Shown one piece after another: positions 22,159 through 33,321 of a DNA stretch of 64,000 nucleotides; within the stretch, counting starts at the first letter, position 1, and every line of letters begins with the position of its first letter. The notes beneath the pieces are model-generated. The model had not been told where the DNA came from. It made no database searches and was given only the letters and a program-made list of their open reading frames with translations. The position numbers and the translations under genes are program-made. The stretch lies in NCBI GenBank assembly GCA_020073465.1, contig JAIQFC010000001.1, forward strand, positions 248,001-312,000. The letters run 5' to 3'. This DNA is from Terriglobia bacterium. Its GTDB lineage: Bacteria > Acidobacteriota > Terriglobia > Terriglobales > Acidobacteriaceae.

Positions 22159-25100
22159 CTACCAGTTCACCTTCATCGCGAACTGGAACTGGCGTGGATC
22201 GTAGGCGGCGGTGGGCTGTCCGGCGATGGTGAACAGCGGGCTGACGGCCGCGACGTTCATCTTGTTGGCGATGTTGAACATGTCGGCGATCAGATCCAGA
22301 TTCATGCGCTCACTAAAATTGATGCGCTTGGAAACGCGCAGATCGTCAAACACGGTCCAGGGAGTGAGGCCAGCGTTACGGCCCAGATTGCCGTCGAGTT
22401 GCAGAAGCGTGGGGACAGTTCCCGCAGCAACGAAGCCGTTGATGCAAGGCTCCTGCAGCACGCCTGTCGGAGAGAATTTGGATTTATAGACGGGGCCGCA
22501 GGCGGGATCAACTGTCGTATTTGGACGGCCCGTCAGAGCCGACAACTGAAAATTGTCCGGGTTGCCAGTGACGATATTGAACGGACGACCAGAAGCAACC
22601 TCAATGACGGGAGCAAAGGTCCAGTCGCTGAAGACCTTGCGGGCAAAGCCACTGCCGCCGAGCTTTCCGGTCTGATAGACAGCGCTGAACACGAAGCGGT
22701 GGCGCTGATCAAACAAGGAACTGGAACGATCCACTGCGGGGAAATAGCTGTCCTGCGGCGTCAGCGTGGATTGCAAGTCCGTGGAATCGTCGATGGCATG
22801 CGACCAGGTGTAAGACGCGAGAAACTCGTAGTGGTTGCTGAAGCGCTTGCGCAGGTTTGCGGTGAAGCCATGATAGACGGAACTGCCGTTGGAATAGTTG
22901 GCGTCCATATCACCGAATGGGATGCAGCTCGTGAAGTCGAAGGTCGGAGGCGCCGGATTGCAGCCTGCGTTGAACCCTGGGAGGGCCCGGAGAGCGTCGA
23001 TGCCCTGCATCACGCAGTTGGCGTCACCCGCCAGATAGCGACCGGCAGCGATGGAGGGATTGAGTCCGCCGGGGCGGAAGAAGTTCATCATGGCCGCGTC
23101 CACGTACGGGAACGGGCCCGCAGGGCCGCCCGGAGGGTTGCAGCCGCTGACGATAAAGGGACTGGCGGGAGGAGTCTGGCCGGCGAGGAGTGCGTCGTAG
23201 TAAGCGGCCTCGAAGTTCGCGGTGAGCAAGTCTCCGCGGACGGTGCTGGCGTTGATGGGGCGGTTCAGGTGGCGTCCGCCGTTAAAGTTGTAAGCCAGGT
23301 TGAGAGCGAAGCCGCCGCCCAGGTCCCGTTCGATGCTGAAGTTCGCCTGCTGTGAATAGGCGTACACGAAGTTCTTGGCTTGGGGATAGCCGAAAGGCTG
23401 GAAGCCCAGTGGCATGAAGGTCGAGAGGTTGAGGTAGTTCTGGTTGAGGAAGATTGATTGTGGGAAGTTAGCGCCACAAGTTGTGCTTGGGCCACTGCAG
23501 GAAAAGCGTTGCTGGTCCGGCGAGTAGTTTAGCGCGGCCAGGACGGCGGGATTTTGCGTGGGGGAACAGGGCGAGGCCACCGAACCACTGGCAGAGGGGA
23601 TGAGCCCCTGGAAGATTGGGATTCCGTTCAGATTGCCGGGCTGTCCGGCTCCGCTGCAAAGGCCCGTGCCGACAAAGGCTAGCTGTCCGCTGGAAGAACC
23701 GTCGGAGGCATCGCCGAGAAAATAAAGGCCCAGCAGTGGATGGTCATAGAACAAGCCGTAAGAAGCCCGGACCACGGTCTTGCCATTTCCCTTGGGATCC
23801 CACGCCACGCCAATGCGAGGCTGAATGTTGTTCTTGTCGGTCTGAATACCCTTCTGCAATCCCAGCAAGTTATAGGCGGGAAGCGCCAGTCCCTGAGGGG
23901 CCTTGAACTTGGGCGGAATCTCTACGTCATAACGAACGCCAAAGTTGAGAGTGACATTGGGGTTCACGCGCCAGGAGTCCTGCCAGAAAGCACCGAACGG
24001 AATGTTCTTGAACGTATCCCTGGGGCTTCCCAGTCCCTGAACGTAGGAAGCGGGTAACCCAGCGCCGTAGGCCTGCACGGGGGAAAGGTCGGGGGCGGAT
24101 GAAGGAAAGCCGAAGGGGGCCAGGTTGAAGCTGCCGAAGTCGTAGACGCCGCCGTAGTTGACAGTAAAGATAGCCTGCACTGGAAGGTAGTTGAAATCCG
24201 CGCCGAACTTGGTGTTGTGGCGGCCAATGCTCCAGGAGAAGTTGTCGATGAACTGGTAGCGCGTCTCCGTGCGCTGAATGTAGGAATACGGTTCGCGTCC
24301 GAAATAGGCGAGTCCCGTAATGTTGACTGCCGGGTCGGAGCCGCCGGGGATCTGCGTGTTGTAGAAGTAGGAGAGGCCACGGCGGGCATACTGGAAGCGG
24401 AATTCATTGATCCTGGTGTTGCCCATGGTCCAGGTATCTTGCACCGAGCCGGCGACATCGCGATAGGTTTGCTGGGAAGTGCGGGAGTAGGCATTCTGCC
24501 CGAAGGGCTGGTCTTGCCCGCTGACCTCGATCCCGGTTACCGTGCTGGGGCTGACGTTGGCGCGCAGCATAAGCCGGTTGGCGCTGGTCAGGTTGTGGTC
24601 GAGGCGGAGCGAGTACAGGCTAGTGCCCTCAAACACTGGAAAGTTGCCCACTTGCGACGCTAGCGACTGAAACGAGGTAGGCAGCGCGTTGCACAGCGGA
24701 GCCGTGGTGTTGCAGGTCGTAATGAACTGGGTTAAGGGATTGCTCTGGTTCAACGGGTCCGGCAGACCACCAGGTGCACCGACCAACAAGGCAAACGAAT
24801 CTGGGTATTTGCGATTGACCGCCACGCCGGAAGACGCACCCGTCACGATGGAGTACTGCTGCGCTAAGGCCAGCGGCAGTCCTGGGGTCGCGAGGAACGC
24901 CGCCTGCTCAGGCGTGACTTGGATGCCGAAAGTACCGGCAGGGGCTCCAAAGAACGGCGACGCGTCAAACGGAACGAGGCCGAAATTCCCTTGTCCGATG
25001 CTGGAAAACCCGGTCTCGTGGCGCCGCGTGACTTCGTAGGAGAAATAGTAGTAAGTCTTGTCTTTCTTGAGCGCGCCGCCGAACGCCGCACCCGCCTGCA

Positions 25101-25953
25101 CCCGGGTGTAAGCCGGATCCTTAACCGTGCTGAAGGGGTTGACGGCCTGGAAATTGCGGTTGCGCAGATAGCCGTACACATCGCCGTGGAAGTCATTGGA
25201 GCCAGATCGGGTGATGATGTTCACCACTCCGCCGGAGGCGCGGCCGTACTCCGCCGCATAGTTGTTGGTGATGATCTGGAATTCCTGCACAGCTTCCTGG
25301 GAGACGGTGGAGCGCACGCCGTTGACCGAGTTGTCGGTAGCATCGGTGCCATCGACGTTGACAAGATTGGAACGCGCGCGCTGGCCGCTCATGTTGAGGC
25401 CGGAAGTGGGGGCCGCGCCGAGGTTGGGGGCGGCGTCGTGTACGACTTGCGAATCCGTCAGGGTGAAATTGATGTAGTTGCGGCCGTTGATGGGAAGATT
25501 GTCAATGCGCCGCTGGCCGATGGTGTCGGTGGTGGAACTGCGCGAGGTTTCGACCAACTCCCCTTGCGCACTGACCTCCACGACTTCTTTGCCCGTGGCC
25601 AGCGTCAGCGCTACCGGAAGTTCCACCAGTCCGCCGACGGGGATGGCCACTTCCTTCGCTTCTGCCTTGGCAAAGCCCCTCGCATCGACGGTGACGGTGT
25701 AGGTTCCGGGCGGGAGCAGGCGAACGCCGTAACCACCCTGCCCGTCTCCGGTGCCAGCCCGTTCCAATCCCTTGGCCACGTCTCGTACTGTGACCGTGGC
25801 GTTAATGACCACGTTGCCGGTGGGATCCTTTACGGTTACGTGCAAATCTCCGGTGGCGACGCCGCCCTGGCCGAAGGTGAGTGCAGACAGCAGCAAGCAA
25901 CACAAACCGGTGCCGACAGCTTTCACTCTCTGGATCATGGCGGTGCGATTCAT
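22159..25953 (-). CDS. Oar-like TonB-dependent receptor
   Basis: A 1264-residue outer-membrane protein of the Oar type that is expanded in Acidobacteriota. It has a signal peptide (about 1-29), a carboxypeptidase-regulatory-like domain (about 30-115, DLHVTVKDPTGNVV), a plug with NVDGTDATDNSVNGVRST and GGVVNIITRSGSNDFHG, and a long barrel with aromatic girdles ending in VNW. A TonB-driven role in uptake of large or plant-derived polymers is usual speculation; the ligand is unknown. AAGGGAG upstream fixes the start at 25953. It is the largest gene of the window. Confidence 0.9.
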   Translation of the reverse strand: MNRTAMIQRVKAVGTGLCCLLLSALTFGQGGVATGDLHVTVKDPTGNVVINATVTVRDVAKGLERAGTGDGQGGYGVRLLPPGTYTVTVDARGFAKAEAKEVAIPVGGLVELPVALTLATGKEVVEVSAQGELVETSRSSTTDTIGQRRIDNLPINGRNYINFTLTDSQVVHDAAPNLGAAPTSGLNMSGQRARSNLVNVDGTDATDNSVNGVRSTVSQEAVQEFQIITNNYAAEYGRASGGVVNIITRSGSNDFHGDVYGYLRNRNFQAVNPFSTVKDPAYTRVQAGAAFGGALKKDKTYYYFSYEVTRRHETGFSSIGQGNFGLVPFDASPFFGAPAGTFGIQVTPEQAAFLATPGLPLALAQQYSIVTGASSGVAVNRKYPDSFALLVGAPGGLPDPLNQSNPLTQFITTCNTTAPLCNALPTSFQSLASQVGNFPVFEGTSLYSLRLDHNLTSANRLMLRANVSPSTVTGIEVSGQDQPFGQNAYSRTSQQTYRDVAGSVQDTWTMGNTRINEFRFQYARRGLSYFYNTQIPGGSDPAVNITGLAYFGREPYSYIQRTETRYQFIDNFSWSIGRHNTKFGADFNYLPVQAIFTVNYGGVYDFGSFNLAPFGFPSSAPDLSPVQAYGAGLPASYVQGLGSPRDTFKNIPFGAFWQDSWRVNPNVTLNFGVRYDVEIPPKFKAPQGLALPAYNLLGLQKGIQTDKNNIQPRIGVAWDPKGNGKTVVRASYGLFYDHPLLGLYFLGDASDGSSSGQLAFVGTGLCSGAGQPGNLNGIPIFQGLIPSASGSVASPCSPTQNPAVLAALNYSPDQQRFSCSGPSTTCGANFPQSIFLNQNYLNLSTFMPLGFQPFGYPQAKNFVYAYSQQANFSIERDLGGGFALNLAYNFNGGRHLNRPINASTVRGDLLTANFEAAYYDALLAGQTPPASPFIVSGCNPPGGPAGPFPYVDAAMMNFFRPGGLNPSIAAGRYLAGDANCVMQGIDALRALPGFNAGCNPAPPTFDFTSCIPFGDMDANYSNGSSVYHGFTANLRKRFSNHYEFLASYTWSHAIDDSTDLQSTLTPQDSYFPAVDRSSSLFDQRHRFVFSAVYQTGKLGGSGFARKVFSDWTFAPVIEVASGRPFNIVTGNPDNFQLSALTGRPNTTVDPACGPVYKSKFSPTGVLQEPCINGFVAAGTVPTLLQLDGNLGRNAGLTPWTVFDDLRVSKRINFSERMNLDLIADMFNIANKMNVAAVSPLFTIAGQPTAAYDPRQFQFAMKVNW

Positions 25954-26221: not shown

Positions 26222-26761
26222 CTACGGTCTTGCGGAGACCCGCACCGGAACCGCCGGATTCTGCAACCGTCCCAGAAGCATCGCGGAGCGGCTCAGCTGC
26301 TCGTATCCCTCGAAAACGCGGGACGCAGCCGGGCCCGAATGCGGCCAGGTCAACGCTACATAGATCTTGAGAAGTGCGAACGCTGCGTTGCGGCGGACAA
26401 GAAGAGCGTTGTTGACGAGTTGTCGCGCTGCTTCCGCGGTGCGAGGGTCGTCGGCGGCCATTCCAGCCTGGCCGATGCGTATCAACACCGCAGCATTTCT
26501 TCCGGCCTGTTGCACGTAAGCGGCAATGGCCCGAAGTCGCGCGCGCCTGACTAAGCGGAATTCCGGCCCGGCAAGGCGCCGTCGCAGGAACTCGTCGTCG
26601 GAGACATTCAGGAGATTGCGAAAGGCTTCGACATCGATGGGCTGGATCTGTCCCGCGAAGTTGCTGCCGTCGGAGACTTGGAGGCTGCGGGATACAGTGA
26701 GTCCCAGAATGCAGACCAACGAGAGGAATGCAGCGATCACGATGATGACGGCCAGAGTCAT
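26222..26761 (-). CDS. Small membrane-anchored protein, coupled to 7TM gene
   Basis: A 179-residue protein with one N-terminal membrane helix (about 2-24, LAVIIVIAAFLSLVCILGL) and a helical, Arg/Ala-rich domain facing the cytosol or periplasm. It is not assigned to a family. Its ATG overlaps the stop codon of the upstream 7TM gene in an ATGA arrangement, so the two are translationally coupled and probably made in fixed ratio, as expected for partners in a complex. No catalytic motif is visible. Confidence 0.7.
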   Translation of the reverse strand: MTLAVIIVIAAFLSLVCILGLTVSRSLQVSDGSNFAGQIQPIDVEAFRNLLNVSDDEFLRRRLAGPEFRLVRRARLRAIAAYVQQAGRNAAVLIRIGQAGMAADDPRTAEAARQLVNNALLVRRNAAFALLKIYVALTWPHSGPAASRVFEGYEQLSRSAMLLGRLQNPAVPVRVSARP

Positions 26762-27528
26762 TGTTGCAGCAGACGCTCCAGTTCCCGGTTCCAGAGCTCG
26801 AGATTGTTCTCGGGTAGAGGAACCGCAGGCTTCACGGCGATCTTTTGCGGGACCAGCAGGTAGTAGAACCAAATCAGGACGCAGGCGTGGTAGGTGGCCA
26901 TGTTAAGGAAATCGAGGAGATGGCGCCTCTCTGGGAGTCCGCCATTCGCCATTACAGCCCAGGTGGCAAGGTGGACGCAGGCCGAGATGCTCAATCCCAA
27001 GGCAATGCCAAAGTCCCAATTGCTCCACGCCAGACGGAAGTATCCCGCGAAGAGGAAAATGAAGAGCAGGAGGCCGCACTCGATCATGAAGATCGTTTGT
27101 TCGAGGATATGGGCGCGCGAGATGATCGTGTAATTCGGGTTGTCGATGGGGGCATACGCGGCGGCGACAGTGGCTGCGAACACAAGCGTCACTCCCACCC
27201 CACGCATGGTCAATTTGCCGATCTTGGCTACCGCTGGGTAGGCCCCAAAGACATGGGCAAAAATCTCTCCTACGAGAGCGAACTTCAAGACCGATTCAAG
27301 GAGCAGGCCCGCCCAGAAAACGCGCCAAAACGTCTCCCCGGAAACTGAGGGGATTACGTCAGCTGCGTAGAGGGTAAGTTGTTCAACTGAGCCGAGGACG
27401 GCAAACGCGAAGAAGACAGGAAACTGCTTGTGCAGCTTCCGCCTCCACAGGAGAGTGACCAGGACCAAAAAGAAGATATTCGGCGCTACCCACAGATAGT
27501 GCCAAAGGAGTGAATGCGCCTGCAGCAT
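26758..27528 (-). CDS. Seven-helix membrane protein, unknown family
   Basis: A 256-residue integral membrane protein with about seven hydrophobic helices (for example 14-28, 39-57, 68-90, 110-127, 144-166, 172-192 and 213-228) and a short charged C-terminal tail ending LERLLQQ. There is no transporter, protease or kinase motif. The topology resembles a receptor or sensor module, which is inference only. It overlaps the small anchored protein gene by four bases. A degenerate copy of the 18-bp near-palindrome lies 59-76 bases upstream of its start, linking it to the XRE regulator locus. Confidence 0.75.
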   Translation of the reverse strand: MLQAHSLLWHYLWVAPNIFFLVLVTLLWRRKLHKQFPVFFAFAVLGSVEQLTLYAADVIPSVSGETFWRVFWAGLLLESVLKFALVGEIFAHVFGAYPAVAKIGKLTMRGVGVTLVFAATVAAAYAPIDNPNYTIISRAHILEQTIFMIECGLLLFIFLFAGYFRLAWSNWDFGIALGLSISACVHLATWAVMANGGLPERRHLLDFLNMATYHACVLIWFYYLLVPQKIAVKPAVPLPENNLELWNRELERLLQQ

Positions 27529-27586
27529 GGCCGTAGAGCGGCACTATACCGCGGCAAGCTACAGGCGGCAATATTAAGTCGAACCG

Positions 27587-27604
27587 TGTTCGGCTTTCGT
27601 AAGT
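27587..27604. promoter_or_regulatory. Operator-like site D (degenerate)
   Basis: TGTTCGGCTTTCGTAAGT matches 14 of 18 positions of site C (TGTTCGGAATTCGTAACA). It sits just upstream of the 7TM gene and just downstream of the 42-residue peptide gene. Confidence 0.4.
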
Positions 27605-27631
27605 AAGGCTTCAGCTCGGCTTGCTTCCAGC

Positions 27632-27760
27632 TTACGGCTTACACATCTTCCCGCCACAGCTGGTGCCACCGGCTCCACCGTCGGCATATGCCGCGACTGG
27701 GATCACCAGTGTATTCAGGAAAAGCAGTGCTGCGGCCAGTACGAGTAGCGTGCGCTTCAT
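27632..27760 (-). CDS. 42-residue exported peptide precursor
   Basis: A short frame with a strong AAGGAG site nine bases before its ATG. Residues 1-26 are a textbook signal peptide (basic MKR, hydrophobic core LLVLAAALLFL, AYA cleavage site). The predicted mature part, DGGAGGTSCGGKMCKP, is Gly-rich with two cysteines that could form a disulphide. Nothing in it suggests an enzyme; a secreted signal, bacteriocin-like peptide or structural peptide are all possible. It lies between the 7TM gene and operator site A, all on a divergent arrangement with the 140-residue gene. The gene is well supported; the role is open. Confidence 0.62.
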   Translation of the reverse strand: MKRTLLVLAAALLFLNTLVIPVAAYADGGAGGTSCGGKMCKP

Positions 27761-27845
27761 TTATGTTTTCTCCTTGTTACCGAGGTTGGACCGTGATATT
27801 TTCATGGGCGCGCCGCCGGGCGCGAAGGCCTTCTAAAGCATTGAT

Positions 27846-27863
27846 TGTTCGGAATTTGTAACA
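27846..27863. promoter_or_regulatory. Operator-like site A
   Basis: TGTTCGGAATTTGTAACA, a near-palindrome, lies in the divergent promoter region of the peptide gene (minus) and the 140-residue gene (plus), ending four bases before the latter's ATG. A bound regulator would block or shape transcription of both. Confidence 0.55.
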
Positions 27864-27867
27864 AGCC

Positions 27868-28290
27868 ATGACGCTCAAATCGGCTCTGCAGGATGTACGG
27901 GAAACGACGCTTGCCGCGGTCTCCGGATTGCTGGGCAAGCTGGCCTATTTGGCGTCGTTGCGCAAGAAGCAGGGTGGCTACCAGCACTGGGGGATGTCCC
28001 TGGTTCATGGGGAGGAATCCTCGGAGCGGGCGCTACGGACGGCCCATGCTGAGGTTGTGGCCAGAGTCCTACGGGAACCAATCGGCGCGCTGGTGGACGA
28101 CTTGCAGGAGTCGAGCCAGGATGGGGGCTTGTCCCCTGCCGTTTATGTTGAGGAAATGCGCGGTCGTTTTGACGACTTGCTACCGGACGAGCGGAAAGGC
28201 TCGCCCGCGGCCTGCCATCTTAATTCAGTGCTGGTGGCGCTTTCGACACTGGAGAAGAGTCGAGCGCGTGCCACTCGGTCAACTTCATAG
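27868..28290 (+). CDS. Hypothetical protein, 140 residues
   Basis: A soluble protein with no recognised domain. The N-terminal half (LKSALQDVRETTLAAVSGLLGKLAYLASLR) is helical and partly hydrophobic; a QHWGMSLVHGEESSERALRTAHAEV stretch and an acidic helix follow. No ribosome site precedes the ATG, and site A lies only four bases upstream, so translation may be leaderless. The last 71 bases overlap the end of the XRE regulator gene on the other strand, an unusual tail-to-tail arrangement that could cause antisense effects. The function is unknown, but shared operator-like sites link it to the regulator. Confidence 0.62.
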   Translation: MTLKSALQDVRETTLAAVSGLLGKLAYLASLRKKQGGYQHWGMSLVHGEESSERALRTAHAEVVARVLREPIGALVDDLQESSQDGGLSPAVYVEEMRGRFDDLLPDERKGSPAACHLNSVLVALSTLEKSRARATRSTS

Positions 28291-29026
28291 CGACGCCCAC
28301 GACCTGTCCCAGGACTTCGGCCTCCTGGGGATGACGCAGGATGCGCACTGGAACCGGCGACAAGGGATGCGGTTGCAGGATGATATCTTCGCGGCGCATG
28401 CTGCACCAGCAGCAGGTATGCCCGTCGCGAGTTTCCACAAAGTAGATGGGACGCTCGTACTCGGAGCGCCATGAACCTTCGACGACTTTATTCCGCGATT
28501 CATCGACCTGAATGAAGCTGCCCGGCGGCAGGATGGGATACATGGTGAAATCCTGATTGCCGATGTAGCCGTAGGTGAAGTCGCTATTGGCAAATTGCGC
28601 CAGGTAGGCGAAGGGAACCAGGCCCCATTGTTCGACCATGCGTCCGAGGTTGGTGGTGCGGCGGTCATCGAAGCCGGGATCCATCCGCAGCGGAACCTGG
28701 ACGGAAGACAGACCCGAAAGAGCCTCGGACACGTGGGATTTGGGTGGAGACACCAAGCCGAGATCGGCGGCAGTGTTATTCATATCAACGCCGTACCAGG
28801 CTAGCAGTTCGCGCAAGTCGCGGCGATAGATCACCGACAGGGTATAGAGCCGATAGATGCTGGGCAGAATGCCTTTGGTCTCGATGTCGGAAAGGCGGCT
28901 GGGAGGAATGGAGAATTCTTCGTTGCGATACTTCTCGGCGATGTGAGCACTGGAGTTTTCGACATCGCGCATCGTCAGACCGAGTTTCTCGCGTAGCGTA
29001 CGCAAACTCTTTCCGGCGGGCAGCAT
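28220..29026 (-). CDS. XRE-type regulator with degenerate S24-like domain
   Basis: A 268-residue transcription regulator. Residues about 5-80 form an XRE helix-turn-helix (LRTLREKLGLTMRDVE and SRLSDIETKGILPS). The C-terminal half resembles the LexA/CI (S24) fold: DFTMYPILPPGSFIQVD parallels the usual SMxP segment but with Thr in place of the nucleophilic Ser, the expected Lys is not evident, and the end VLGQVVGVAMKL is typical. Self-cleavage is therefore unlikely. A CCWC cluster in this domain could bind metal or sense redox. A GTG at 29074 would add 16 residues. It likely recognises the four near-palindromes around it. Confidence 0.8.
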   Translation of the reverse strand: MLPAGKSLRTLREKLGLTMRDVENSSAHIAEKYRNEEFSIPPSRLSDIETKGILPSIYRLYTLSVIYRRDLRELLAWYGVDMNNTAADLGLVSPPKSHVSEALSGLSSVQVPLRMDPGFDDRRTTNLGRMVEQWGLVPFAYLAQFANSDFTYGYIGNQDFTMYPILPPGSFIQVDESRNKVVEGSWRSEYERPIYFVETRDGHTCCWCSMRREDIILQPHPLSPVPVRILRHPQEAEVLGQVVGVAMKLTEWHALDSSPVSKAPPALN

Positions 29027-29060
29027 GAACAGGGCCTCCGAAGCGTGGGGGACATAATAC

Positions 29061-29078
29061 CAAAGTGGGATCACTTTG
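29061..29078. promoter_or_regulatory. Inverted repeat at the XRE promoter
   Basis: CAAAGTG, four bases, CACTTTG: a perfect 7-bp inverted repeat just upstream of TATTAT. Its position suits a repressor site, possibly autoregulation. Its sequence differs from the 18-bp motif, so another protein may bind. Confidence 0.4.
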
Positions 29079-29113
29079 TATCGGGTTGTGCAAAATTTTT
29101 GAACGCAGGGTCC

Positions 29114-29131
29114 TGTTACGTTTTCCGAACA
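29114..29131. promoter_or_regulatory. Operator-like site B
   Basis: On the minus strand TGTTCGGAAAACGTAACA, 88 bases upstream of the XRE start. It matches site C at 16 of 18 positions. Confidence 0.55.
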
Positions 29132-29227
29132 GGCTCATCACCGCGTCGTACTTGGCAATTCGAGAGTGTGGCGTGGTTGAAGCTGCGACCTGAGCCTGCG
29201 TGCTTACGGTTGTGGAATTCATGTGGT

Positions 29228-29245
29228 TGTTCGGAATTCGTAACA
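29228..29245. promoter_or_regulatory. Operator-like site C
   Basis: TGTTCGGAATTCGTAACA, the most palindromic copy: TGTT...AACA ends around a GAATTC core with two mismatched pairs. It lies between the XRE gene and the ABC operon and may serve either. Confidence 0.55.
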
Positions 29246-29480
29246 GGTGCGTGACTTTCTGGCGTATTCCTTCCTGTTTTACAGGGCTAACCTTGCCCGG
29301 CCCGCCCAGCAAGAATCCAGTCTCCCGGGGTAAATCGCAGCGCTGATCCCGGATGACATTTGTCACGCCCTTTGAGTGATGGATGGCACTGGTGAACTGC
29401 CTGGCGATGCTCGAATATGGCGTCGTGGCGGGAAGAAAAGCTTCTCGCCAGCAAAATCAGGTGCGGCGGAGAGTATTCAG

Positions 29481-30434
29481 ATGAGTGCGACAATCGAACA
29501 GACGCGGGAGACTCCTTCAATCGAGACCGGAGGGATCGTTGCCAGCCTCGAAGGGGTGAGCAAGAACTATGGCCCGGTTCGGGCCTTGCGCGCGGTGGAT
29601 TTCAACGTGCGCGCAGGAGAACTGGTCGCACTGCTGGGACCGAACGGAGCGGGCAAGACTACGGCGGTGAAGCTATTGCTCGGCCTGATGCCGCCACATG
29701 CCGGCCGGGTCCGAGTCTTCGGTGGCGACCCCACGAATCCCGAAAACCGGAAACGCACAGGGGCAATGTTGCAGGTGGGACGCGTCCCCGAGACGTTGCG
29801 CGTTCGCGAGCACATTGATCTGTTCTCCAGCTATTACCAGAAGCCCATGCCGCTGGGCGAGGTTCTAGCTGCGGCCGGGCTCGAGAAATTGGGCGACCGC
29901 AAGTTCGCAGACCTTTCTGGAGGACAGAGACAACGTGTTCTGTTTGCCCTCGCCATCTGCGGCGATCCTGACGTTCTTTTTCTCGACGAGCCCACGGTCG
30001 GACTGGATGTAGAAGCGCGACGCTTGCTCTGGGATGAAATTCGCAAGCTGGTTGGGCGTGGCAAGACCGTCCTGCTGACCACGCATTATCTGCAGGAGGC
30101 CGACACTCTGGCAGACCGGGTTGCAGTGATCAATCAGGGAGCAATTATTGCGCAGAGCACGCCCGCGGAGATCAAGGCGAAAACGAGCGGCAAAAGGATT
30201 CGTTGCATCACGGCCCTGGACCTCAACAGCCTGCGGGAGATTCACGGCGTGACCGAGGTAAAAGAAGATCGTGAAGCGGTGGAAATTCACGCGCGCGAGG
30301 CCGAGCCCGTTGTGCGCGCCTTGCTGGCGCGCGACCCGCTACTCGCCGGACTCGAAATCACCAGCGCCGGACTGGAAGAAGCATTCCTGGCGCTTACCAG
30401 GGACACCGGGCAAAACGGAAATCAGCAGAACTAA
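29481..30434 (+). CDS. ABC transporter ATP-binding protein
   Basis: A 317-residue ABC-2 type ATPase. Walker A GPNGAGKT is at about 53-60, the signature LSGGQ at 145-149 and Walker B LFLDEP at 167-172, followed by a switch His in TTHYL. The C-terminal region beyond residue 230 is the DrrA/NatA-like extension. It should power the permease encoded 34 bases downstream. GGAGAG precedes the ATG at 29481. The gene opens an operon with permease, mini-protein, kinase and regulator, a pattern seen for drug or lipid exporters such as Bacillus yvfRSTU-type systems. Confidence 0.95.
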   Translation: MSATIEQTRETPSIETGGIVASLEGVSKNYGPVRALRAVDFNVRAGELVALLGPNGAGKTTAVKLLLGLMPPHAGRVRVFGGDPTNPENRKRTGAMLQVGRVPETLRVREHIDLFSSYYQKPMPLGEVLAAAGLEKLGDRKFADLSGGQRQRVLFALAICGDPDVLFLDEPTVGLDVEARRLLWDEIRKLVGRGKTVLLTTHYLQEADTLADRVAVINQGAIIAQSTPAEIKAKTSGKRIRCITALDLNSLREIHGVTEVKEDREAVEIHAREAEPVVRALLARDPLLAGLEITSAGLEEAFLALTRDTGQNGNQQN

Positions 30435-30468
30435 TCCCGCACGAGAATACAAGCGAGGGAGAAATACG

Positions 30469-31284
30469 ATGAGCACGATGACAGCGGCACTTAGCGATAC
30501 GCGGATCGAGCGTTCCCCCGGGCACACGGCGAGGATCTACCTGAAGGAAGCAAAGTATGAGTTCCTCAAGAACCTTCGCCTACGCATGTACACGGCGTCG
30601 GTACTCAGCTTTCCGCTGATGTTCTATGTGCTGTTCGGGCTGGTCCTGAATTCGAAGGAAGCAATCGGCGGCACAGGTGTTCCGACCTACTTGATCGCCA
30701 CCTACGGCACCTTCGGAGTCATGGGCGCGTCCTTGTTCGGGACCGCTGCCGGGCTCGCCGCGGACCGAGGCCTGGGATGGCTGCAGGTGAAGCGGGCCAG
30801 TCCCATGCCGCCCTTCGCCTACTTCATCGCGAAGGTGGTAATGAGTATGATCTTCAGCGCGATTGTGGTGCTCGCGCTCATGGTGCTGGGTATCAGTTTT
30901 GGCGGAGTCCGGATGCCGTTGGCAGACTTGACGAAACTGTTGGGAACGCTGGTTGCCGGCTCGCTTCCTTTCTCAGCCATGGGTTTGGCGGTCGGCTACT
31001 TCGCCGGGCCGACCTCGGCGCCCCCGACCATCAATCTCATTTACCTGCCGATGTCATTCTGCAGCGGGCTGTGGGTACCCTTCATGTTCCTACCGAAGTT
31101 CGTGCGGCAGATTGCGTTGGTGTTGCCTCCTTATCATCTGTCGCAACTCGCGCTGGGCATCGTAGGCGCAGGGCGTCACGAGTCCGCCGCGACGCACTGG
31201 GAAGTGCTGTTTGCGTTTACGCTCATCTGCTTGGGCATCGCGCGCATCGGCTTCCAGCGTGATCAGGAAAAGATGTACGGCTGA
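30469..31284 (+). CDS. ABC-2 type permease
   Basis: A 271-residue membrane protein with about six helices (for example 43-62, 72-95, 121-145, 155-177, 187-205 and 243-260), matching the ABC-2 permease fold. A short amphipathic N-terminus precedes the first helix. It forms the transport channel with the ATPase encoded immediately upstream. The direction is probably export, of a drug, antibiotic or lipid; the substrate is unknown. GAGGGAG lies before the ATG. Confidence 0.92.
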   Translation: MSTMTAALSDTRIERSPGHTARIYLKEAKYEFLKNLRLRMYTASVLSFPLMFYVLFGLVLNSKEAIGGTGVPTYLIATYGTFGVMGASLFGTAAGLAADRGLGWLQVKRASPMPPFAYFIAKVVMSMIFSAIVVLALMVLGISFGGVRMPLADLTKLLGTLVAGSLPFSAMGLAVGYFAGPTSAPPTINLIYLPMSFCSGLWVPFMFLPKFVRQIALVLPPYHLSQLALGIVGAGRHESAATHWEVLFAFTLICLGIARIGFQRDQEKMYG

Positions 31285-31326
31285 AATTCACTGCGAGGCA
31301 ACTTAGAGAACCGGGAGGAGCTGGTC

Positions 31327-31488
31327 ATGAGCGCGGAATCGAAAAAATCGATGGGCTGGACGATCATCCTGATGACCCTCGGAGTAGTAGCTCTCTACGC
31401 CGGTGCAGAATGGTTGCTTCTGTTGGTTCCTGCCGCGGTGCTGGTGTGGTACGGCGCCAGGCCCAGGCTGCGACGTGGCCGGAATTGA
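31327..31488 (+). CDS. 53-residue membrane mini-protein
   Basis: A short gene with an excellent GGAGGAG site six bases before its ATG. The product has a charged start (MSAESKKSMG), two close hydrophobic stretches (about 11-23 and 28-42) and a basic tail RPRLRRGRN. It lies 42 bases after the permease and 76 before the kinase, on the same strand. It may be a small subunit of the exporter or a regulator linking transporter and kinase. No family is recognised. Confidence 0.68.
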   Translation: MSAESKKSMGWTIILMTLGVVALYAGAEWLLLLVPAAVLVWYGARPRLRRGRN

Positions 31489-31564
31489 CCGGAGGGTTGA
31501 GAATAGAGGGGATGACGACGATCATCATTAGCACCAACAAGCGTGTGCCCGGGAAACAGAGTCG

Positions 31565-32692
31565 ATGAAGCTCAGGTCACTGAAGTCGGTGTTCAAGGAC
31601 AAGGAACACGGATGGGGTCCCTTGTTCTGGGTGTTGTATTTGGGATTCTTTTTTGTTCAGCCCGCAGTGGACGGTGTGAGCGCGTGGAAGTGGTTCCTTG
31701 ATGGGCTTGGCGCTCTTGTTTTTCTTGCCCTTTATTTGGGGCTTTTCTGGCTGGAGAAACCACGGGCAGTCGTGCACATCGGCGGCATGGTGTTGTTGGG
31801 AGTTTTATTCTTTCCCTACAACGGCGGCGCCTCCACGTTCTTCATCTTCGCCGGCGCTTTTGTTCCCTTCGTAGTCGAGACCCAAGTTGTAGCACTCGCC
31901 AGCCTCGGAGGAATCGTAGCGGTCGCAGCAGTTGAGAGCTTGCTCCTGTATGTCACAGGCTGGCCTGTCAATGGCTGGAACGTGTTTTTCGCCGCTGTCT
32001 TTCCCCTGGTGGTTGGTGGCAGCAACGTCTTTTTCGCCGAGCGCAACCGGATGAACCGGAAGCTGCGCAAAGCCAACGAAGAAATCGAACATCTGGCCAA
32101 AGTTGCGGAGCGGGAGCGCATCGCCCGCGACCTGCACGATGTGCTGGGGCACACGCTCTCGGTGATCATCCTGAAGTCGGAATTGGCGGGCAAGCTCATC
32201 GACCGAAACCCGGAGCAGGCCGGGGTGGAAATCCGCGAAGTCGAGCAGATCTCGCGCCAGGCATTGTCCGATGTACGGGATGCGATCCGCGGATACCGGT
32301 CGCAGGGGCTTACGGCGGAGCTGGCGTTGGCGAAATCCACTCTGGAAACTGCAGGAGTGACCGTGCGGTGCGACGCCGCGACGACCTTGAAACTTCCGGC
32401 GGTGCAGGAGAGCGTGTTGTCCCTGGCCGTGCGCGAAGCCGTGACCAACGTTGTACGCCACGCCCAGGCTCGCACCTGCGAGTTTCGCATTGAGCAGCAG
32501 AATGGGTCGTGCCGGCTGGAGATCCATGACGATGGCCGGGGCGGCTCTACCCTCGAAGGCAATGGGCTCCGCGGCATGCGCGAAAGAGTGGAAATGCTGG
32601 GCGGAACACTCGATCGCGATACAGCCGCCGGCACCAGGCTCATCATCACGCTGCCCTTGAAAGAAATGACGCCGAAAGGCTGCGCCAATTGA
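31565..32692 (+). CDS. DesK/NarX-type sensor histidine kinase
   Basis: A 375-residue membrane kinase. Five to six helices occupy residues 15-155, with almost no periplasmic loop, so it may sense membrane state or the neighbouring transporter. A coiled coil (155-185) leads to the HisKA_3 box with phospho-acceptor His191 in RDLHDVLGH. The HATPase domain shows AVREAVTNVVRHA (N box), DDGRGG and GNGLRGMRERV. It should phosphorylate the regulator encoded downstream, with which it overlaps by four bases, and probably controls this operon. Confidence 0.93.
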   Translation: MKLRSLKSVFKDKEHGWGPLFWVLYLGFFFVQPAVDGVSAWKWFLDGLGALVFLALYLGLFWLEKPRAVVHIGGMVLLGVLFFPYNGGASTFFIFAGAFVPFVVETQVVALASLGGIVAVAAVESLLLYVTGWPVNGWNVFFAAVFPLVVGGSNVFFAERNRMNRKLRKANEEIEHLAKVAERERIARDLHDVLGHTLSVIILKSELAGKLIDRNPEQAGVEIREVEQISRQALSDVRDAIRGYRSQGLTAELALAKSTLETAGVTVRCDAATTLKLPAVQESVLSLAVREAVTNVVRHAQARTCEFRIEQQNGSCRLEIHDDGRGGSTLEGNGLRGMRERVEMLGGTLDRDTAAGTRLIITLPLKEMTPKGCAN

Positions 32693-33321
32693 ATCCGACC
32701 GTAAAAGAAGGACGTAAAACCATTCGCGTGGTCCTGGCGGAGGATCAGGGCATGGTTTTGGGCGCACTGGCGGCGCTGCTCGAAATCGAAGGCGACATTT
32801 CAGTCGTGGGCCAGGCGCGCAACGGCAAGGAAGCGCTCGATGCAGTCCTGGCGCAGAAGCCGGATGTCTTCATTACCGACATCGAGATGCCGCACATGAG
32901 CGGCCTCGACGTCGCGGTGGAGCTCAAGCGTCGAAAGACGGGAACGCGCATCATTATCGTTACAACATTCGCACGCGCTGGATATCTGCGGCGGGCGCTC
33001 GAAGCCGGTGCGTCGGGGTATCTGCTGAAAGACATGCGCGCTGAAGAACTCGCGGAGGCGGTACGCCGCGTGCAGCAGGGACTGCGCGTGATTCATCCGG
33101 AGCTTGCGACAGAAGCATGGGGCGAGTTGGATCCGCTCACCGATCGCGAGCGCCAGGTGCTTCGTCTGGCTGGTGAGGGCATGGCCAGTGGCGATATTGC
33201 TGCGGAGTTGGGACTGTCGGACGGAACGGTGCGAAATTATCTTTCCGAAGCCATCAGCAAGCTGGGGGCAAGCAATCGCGTGGAAGCAGCGCGGATTGCG
33301 AGAACGAAGGGCTGGCTTTAA
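32689..33321 (+). CDS. NarL/LuxR-type response regulator
   Basis: A 210-residue two-component regulator. The receiver domain (about 10-130) has the acidic pair Glu18/Asp19, phospho-acceptor Asp64 in ITDIEMP and Lys114 in YLLKD. The C-terminal LuxR helix-turn-helix (about 145-205) contains LTDRERQVLRLAGEG and SDGTVRNYLSEAISKLG. Translation appears to start at a TTG at 32689 whose last bases form the kinase stop (TTGA), implying coupling. It is the partner of the upstream kinase. A palindromic repeat starts five bases after its stop. Confidence 0.93.
   Translation: MNPTVKEGRKTIRVVLAEDQGMVLGALAALLEIEGDISVVGQARNGKEALDAVLAQKPDVFITDIEMPHMSGLDVAVELKRRKTGTRIIIVTTFARAGYLRRALEAGASGYLLKDMRAEELAEAVRRVQQGLRVIHPELATEAWGELDPLTDRERQVLRLAGEGMASGDIAAELGLSDGTVRNYLSEAISKLGASNRVEAARIARTKGWL

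Follow-up and report, generated by a model that had tools for sequence, protein, structure and literature searches.

The window, a 64,000-nucleotide stretch of Terriglobia bacterium DNA from a genome of 5.9 Mb, holds five small genes and three copies of an 18-bp palindrome within little more than 3 kb (Table 1). The genes that the original prediction had listed are all present. The 7TM gene is coupled to the anchored-protein gene (26222–27528, minus strand together) by an ATGA in which the stop codon of the former overlaps the ATG of the latter; the 42-residue exported peptide has the strong ribosome site taacaaggagaaaacataaATG in front; and the divergent 140-residue orphan and the XRE regulator lie beyond it, their 3' ends overlapping by 71 bp. 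The first in-frame start of the XRE gene is at 29074, and matches in relatives begin at the ATG at 29026. The near-palindromes noted in front of these units also proved real, being above chance when compared with the reversed pattern.

Table 1. Genes and palindromes of the locus, in window coordinates
Feature	Positions	Strand	Remarks
Anchored protein gene	26222–26761	-	179 aa; single TM helix at the N terminus; charged helical domain, predicted to lie in the cytoplasm
7TM protein gene	26758–27528	-	256 aa; candidate peptide receptor
Exported peptide precursor gene	27632–27760	-	42 aa; likely mature part DGGAGGTSCGGKMCKP, cleavage site placed by eye
Operator palindrome, peptide/140-aa intergenic region	27846–27863		TGTTCGGAATTTGTAACA; 4 bp ahead of the 140-aa ATG
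140-aa protein gene	27868–28290	+	Family not recognised; convergent with XRE
XRE regulator gene	28220–29074	-	Helix-turn-helix and LexA/CI-like C-terminal part; conserved start at 29026
Operator palindrome upstream of XRE	29114–29131		Differs from the search pattern by one mismatch
Second operator palindrome upstream of XRE	29228–29245		Exact match to the search pattern

The coding status of all five genes is supported by their pN/pS values (uncorrected proportions from 27–28 sequences each, with pS close to saturation), which were 0.38 for the peptide, 0.40 for the 140-aa protein, 0.41 for the 7TM protein, 0.33 for the anchored protein and 0.12 for XRE. Indels in the peptide gene, among 27–28 sequences, keep the frame and fall in the mature part only. 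Judged by these patterns, the small ORFs of the module evolve as coding sequence.

In line with the claim that none of the non-regulator proteins belongs to a recognised family, searches of known families gave no match above cut-off for the anchored, 7TM, peptide or 140-aa protein. In Pfam, the anchored protein, the peptide and the 140-aa protein were unmatched and the 7TM protein had a sub-threshold match to AgrB (E 0.0081, 16 bits, against a cut-off of 23); in a separate scan, the peptide matched PtrA and the 140-aa protein CopY/TcrY, both below threshold. The five core proteins were unmatched in PHROGs, as were the four scanned with PADLOC. XRE alone among the core proteins had a family above cut-off in these scans; in Pfam its helix-turn-helix (HTH) matches were sub-threshold, and the VIA rows covered the HTH alone, which resembles those of ComR, PlcR, Rgg2, PrgX and CI repressors.

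Conservation of the gene set and the peptide family

In 20 same-genus loci chosen from XRE matches on long contigs, the order TonB-dependent receptor, anchored protein, 7TM, peptide, 140-aa protein, XRE was identical throughout (20/20). An XRE match, in some cases partial at a contig end, was present in 34 of the 37 genus genomes, and the 7TM protein was found at E < 1e-70 in 32 of them. A six-sequence XRE profile gave matches in 179 of 299 genomes of the class, from 68 of 106 genera; in a sample of 297 taken across the phylum, the only full-length matches outside the class belonged to two genomes, both in a single genus. When fetched loci were scanned with profiles of the anchored, 7TM, 140-aa and XRE proteins, these four larger genes were seen to recur jointly in other families, arranged in three main orders. 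Among 127 XRE loci, a tally that includes loci at contig ends, 82 had the order of the window, nine had the 7TM, anchored and 140-aa genes on one strand and convergent with XRE, and five had the order 7TM–anchored–XRE–140-aa; the others held XRE only (5), XRE and the 140-aa gene only (17), or XRE and the 140-aa gene together with the anchored gene (5), with the 7TM gene (3) or with the anchored gene on the opposite strand (1). That the genes stay linked despite rearrangement argues for a joint function.

The association reaches beyond the class. In another class, locus L347 has all five parts and L348 all except the anchored gene, its contig ending just past the 7TM gene, and the peptides of the two end in ...MDGNVTPPPPPPPP(PP)KS. 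In the seven stand-alone loci L351–L357, a peptide ORF precedes the 7TM gene in all seven and the anchored gene is present in six; L351 has two 7TM genes, with a peptide ORF before only one of them. Co-occurrence of homologues, whose absence the original prediction had named beforehand as refuting its grouping, was thus found across families, in several gene orders and in another class, and the five small genes form one conserved module. The ABC/HK/RR cassette at 29481–33321 was considered as a further part and rejected, as it is missing in 3 of 20 loci with all five genes. A conserved effector gene adjoining the module was likewise discarded: clustering of 942 neighbour proteins yielded no family common to most loci, the largest non-core family occurring at 21 of the 127.

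The 30 distinct peptides of the genus have a common layout: an AAGGAG-type site is followed by a leader, a cleavage-like junction between A and D, variable residues and, at the end, C...C(K/R)P. More widely, 85 of 98 non-redundant loci had a short ORF with a ribosome site and a hydrophobic leader directly upstream of the 7TM gene (genus, 27/27; other families, 28/34; remaining loci from the XRE search, 30/37), a count from which L057–L076 were omitted because their genomes are repeated in L097–L123. A stricter definition of the peptide retained 77 of the 98, against 27 of 1163 control genes; the run that supplied this control gave 97 of 120 loci, repeated genomes included. The control background is overstated, since its 27 matches include pieces of 7TM genes, module peptides lying before a spurious ORF and a small gene preceding an HK.

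Composition within the family is varied. A DG motif occurs in 60 of the 85 peptides and PP or PxP in 58, while after residue 20 exactly two Cys are found in 69 and none in 13. Moreover, seven of the 85 precursors repeat the core two to three times, as with ADGTEPPPPPIPW present three times in L212 and a LNRTDDLFPCPDGDCK-type core three times in L220, and 0 of 500 shuffles reached such repeats. By eye, two cores also recur in four of the seven stand-alone loci, and L221 carries a tandem pair of genes with an identical peptide.

The palindrome and its genomic copies

In all 28 genus loci, in 23 of 46 loci of other families and in 26 of 53 remaining loci, the 18-bp palindrome lay no more than 300 bp upstream of XRE, where shuffles predict 0.1–0.3 palindromes; on the side of the 140-aa and peptide genes, the corresponding figures were 25/27, 13/44 and 11/49. 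Its placement indicates one operator common to the XRE and the peptide/140-aa promoters. Given that XRE is of LexA/CI type (see below) and that one site lies 4 bp before the start codon of the 140-aa gene, XRE would most plausibly act as a repressor.

Further copies lie elsewhere in the genomes. With up to two mismatches, 15 sites were found in the genome that carries the locus compared to 2 for the reversed pattern; with up to one mismatch, 19 genus genomes held 146 sites (1–15 each, about eight per genome) compared to 3 for the reversed pattern, and the palindrome was absent from 12 genomes of another family. Of 299 class genomes, 46 contained the exact form, TGTTCYGAWWTCRGAACA, and none its reversed control. 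XRE is present in 44 of these 46, as counted by eye from two match listings, against 179 of 299 overall (Fisher p 5e-9). Away from the module, 57 sites were examined, and only seven of them lie inside ORFs, where 61% would be expected at random. From their distribution, the copies mark what appears to be a small, mostly intergenic regulon.

The genes beside these sites are diverse. In the genome carrying the locus they include a PF04185 phosphoesterase and a papain-family protease, and elsewhere a thaumatin/ricin-B protein, a metallophosphoesterase, Crp-type and response regulators, a PilZ protein, an SDH-type protease, a VanY-like protein at the cut-off and unrecognised proteins; a Pfam scan at E 0.01 left ten of 20 site-adjoining proteins unmatched and gave an eleventh a sub-threshold match only. 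A membrane protein without a Pfam match adjoins sites in four species (one of these sites at two mismatches), and a large unrecognised protein and the PF04185 phosphoesterase do so in three species each; the palindrome-linked target sets vary between species. A regulon of secreted proteins was considered and rejected, with signal sequences in 5 of 46 against 6 of 144 (p=0.14). The TonB-dependent receptor gene next to the module (22159–25953) has no operator in front of it at up to two mismatches in its own genome.

Candidate receptor and repressor, and a proposed signalling route

In a low-confidence model, XRE has strands at residues 108–242, and the best Foldseek matches of this model were LexA of T. 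maritima (E 3.2e-5) and a lambda-186 hybrid repressor, three matches falling at E < 0.001. At the sequence level, the XRE profile aligned weakly with LexA of its own genome (37 columns, probability 19.6), a PDB sequence search with the profile matched the HTH only (best E 0.0063) and not LexA, and PF00717 found no XRE in the genome at E up to 10. In 160 XRE rows, which contain repeated genomes and were matched to LexA residues by eye, the position of the LexA Ser is Thr in 128 and that of the Lys is replaced by Cys, with Lys in none, and a CxWC motif is kept in 157, 159 and 158 of the 160 rows, duplicates included. By the model XRE thus resembles LexA/CI repressors, and by the alignment it lacks the Ser-Lys self-cleavage dyad.

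The AlphaFold2 model of the 7TM protein (pLDDT 90.2, pTM 0.87) has seven long helices and a C-terminal helix, oriented N-out/C-in by charge distribution, and its helix arrangement is consistent with a GPCR-like fold, with Foldseek E values of 0.067 or worse and Z in the caveat range for helical bundles. The outer half is more variable than the inner (entropy 2.31 vs 1.84). In the anchored protein, K/R residues average 0.07 before the TM segment and 2.46 in the 15 residues after it (123 homologues, some from the same genome).

Across 27 genus species, the distances between mature peptides correlated with those between 7TM proteins (r=0.50, 0/1000 permutations) after removal of anchored, 140-aa and XRE distances, and under the same control not with the anchored (-0.04) or 140-aa protein (-0.13). 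The leader showed no link to the 7TM protein (0.08) and weak links to the anchored (0.27) and 140-aa (0.21) proteins. With XRE alone controlled for, the correlation with the mature peptide was 0.57 for the outer half of the 7TM protein and 0.43 for the inner. Hence, co-variation links the mature peptide to the 7TM protein and not to the anchored or 140-aa protein. In the five loci examined where the 7TM gene is absent (four, with the anchored gene present) or truncated (one), no peptide was found in the gap.

The idea of a small signalling or peptide-response module is therefore supported by gene co-occurrence, co-variation of mature peptide and 7TM protein, repeated cores and a common operator. 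We consider it probable that the module serves peptide-pheromone signalling or self-sensing, with the 7TM protein as receptor, XRE as a CI-like repressor and the peptide as signal rather than effector. The precursor would be exported via its own Sec-type signal sequence and cleaved just ahead of the core, whose start is usually DG, to yield a short peptide with two Cys, rich in Pro, or both. This peptide may be bound by the outward side of the 7TM protein, from which the signal would pass through the membrane-anchored cytoplasmic protein as relay to XRE; the 140-aa protein is a probable adaptor or anti-repressor that would help to inactivate XRE. Release of XRE from its 18-bp operators would then allow expression of the peptide, 140-aa and XRE genes and of the small dispersed regulon, with group or self-sensing as the presumed output.

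Three other explanations were weighed against this one. The peptide might be a bacteriocin that kills close relatives, the 7TM/anchored pair protecting the producer and XRE controlling production. Toxin and immunity proteins also co-vary, and several operator-linked genes are hydrolase-like or lectin-type; nevertheless, killing loci are usually patchy in distribution, whereas the module occurs, at a single locus, in nearly all genomes of the genus, and many XRE sites lie at loci away from the peptide. The missing PADLOC and PHROGs matches point the same way but are little informative on bacteriocins, and overall we regard this explanation as improbable. Similarly unlikely in our estimation is envelope self-monitoring, with the peptide reporting from the periplasm on secretion or redox state and not serving as a cell-to-cell signal: much of the peptide may remain in the periplasm of a diderm cell, and the two-Cys peptides together with the CxWC motif of XRE would suit redox sensing, but co-variation of the mature part with the 7TM protein and the repeated cores would be left unexplained, and the 13 peptides without Cys after residue 20 do not fit. 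Finally, the 7TM protein could process or transport the peptide as AgrB does, with another protein as true receptor, and an enzyme or transporter would indeed co-vary with its substrate and the sub-threshold AgrB match would fit, yet the peptide has its own signal sequence, neither Cys nor His is invariant among the 7TM proteins (44 and 41 of 63 at the best-conserved positions) and the module has no histidine kinase, the neighbouring HK cassette being missing in the 3 of 20 loci noted above, which makes this a poor candidate.

Peptide signalling as such is well known, and the receptor–repressor reading has partial parallels. Like the Agr system (AgrB/AgrD/AgrC/AgrA), the module encodes a multi-spanning membrane protein and, next to it, a short exported peptide that varies with it; unlike in Agr, the 7TM protein passes no AgrB model and keeps no invariant Cys or His, the peptide has a signal sequence of its own and no kinase belongs to the module, the adjacent HK/RR pair, absent from the three loci mentioned above, being of HisKA_3/GerE type. 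With the RRNPP systems (Rgg-SHP, PlcR-PapR, PrgX, ComR-ComS) it shares the link between a short exported peptide and an XRE-type regulator, but the C-terminal part of XRE is predicted, in the low-confidence model, to be beta-rich and LexA-like rather than TPR, with no Pfam TPR match, and the 7TM and anchored partners are conserved. LexA and CI (peptidase S24 fold) likewise combine an HTH with such a C-terminal fold and have a palindromic operator at their own promoter, but XRE lacks their catalytic dyad and escapes PF00717. GPCRs, the LYCHOS GPCR-like domain and rhodopsins share 4–12% identity with the 7TM protein among the matches listed, and the retinal-binding helix 7 Lys of microbial rhodopsins is not conserved, Lys occurring within residues 205–225 in 2 of 63 sequences. 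To our knowledge, the signalling route proposed here matches no known system, and because the peptide, 7TM, anchored and 140-aa proteins also fall in no family found, we regard the module as new. A literature search whose scope excluded most subscription papers and all bioRxiv preprints returned no description of such a module.

Acidobacteriota are abundant in soil, and it is quite possible, though we hold this more tentatively, that the module is a class-wide acidobacterial pheromone system in which a receptor of GPCR-like fold senses a secreted mini-peptide, made in some cases from a multi-copy precursor, and acts through an anchored adaptor on a CI-like repressor with a genome-wide regulon. 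For quorum sensing in Acidobacteriota, passages of one review (PMC7661733) name acyl-homoserine lactone genes alone. If true, the proposed system would provide the class with a defined means of communication, complete with its own receptor, regulator and operator and a regulon that can be read, and, should the receptor fold hold, a bacterial peptide receptor of GPCR-like architecture. The system is directly testable, as the sequences suffice for synthesis of the core peptides and a reporter is at hand in the operator. It would also account for hundreds of unnamed 42-aa genes, the peptide profile having given 741 matches, of which those named among the 120 listed are 'hypothetical protein'.

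Genes flanking the module

The TonB-dependent receptor gene that adjoins the anchored-protein gene was present at all 20 same-genus loci read around the XRE regulator gene, and a palindrome search of the own genome found no operator site ahead of it. The cassette on the other side of the module, in which an ABC transporter is combined with a small 53-aa protein, a histidine kinase and a response regulator, was missing from three of the 20 loci and is a neighbour separable from the module.

Features near the module, its paralogues and operator-like sites (window positions unless a fetched locus, L, is named)
Feature	Position	Strand	Remark
TonB-dependent receptor (OMP_b-brl_4)	22159-25953		adjoins anchored gene
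ABC/histidine kinase/response regulator cassette	29481-33321		between XRE and asparaginase-like gene
7TM paralogue, 308 aa	L342 2275-3198 (own genome, contig C62)	minus	25% identical
Response-regulator-like proteins	L086 1462-2394; L091 2741-3502; L339 2763-3542		
Large protein	L333 2540-4999		adjoins operator-like site

Loci with an altered module

Four loci (L136, L139, L141 and L156) keep the XRE, 140-aa and anchored-protein genes with the 7TM gene absent, and a fifth (L142) keeps the same three with the 7TM gene truncated; no peptide was found at any of the five, which may represent signal-blind lineages. At L221, two tandem peptide genes encoding an identical 37-aa precursor lie upstream of the 7TM gene. 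At L349, from another genus of the same family, neither the 140-aa nor the anchored-protein gene was detected, and XRE and 7TM genes lie close to each other, the latter preceded by a Pro-rich candidate peptide.

Paralogues and genes near operator-like sites

Copies similar to the 7TM paralogue are present in most genus genomes; neither a peptide nor an anchored-protein gene was found beside it at L342. XRE paralogues (L077-L084; 35-41% identity) neighbour a divergently encoded protein of ~550-590 aa with two XRE-like segments (cut by the contig end in L082), possibly a second regulator type. The large protein at L333 gave partial matches (PDC-S60, TPR) in the PADLOC search for defence-system genes and could be a defence gene controlled by XRE. 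Response-regulator-like proteins, which grouped with L149 and L161 on clustering, adjoin two divergent modules, and similar ones, judged by eye, occur near operator sites with two mismatches to the search pattern on own-genome contig C5.
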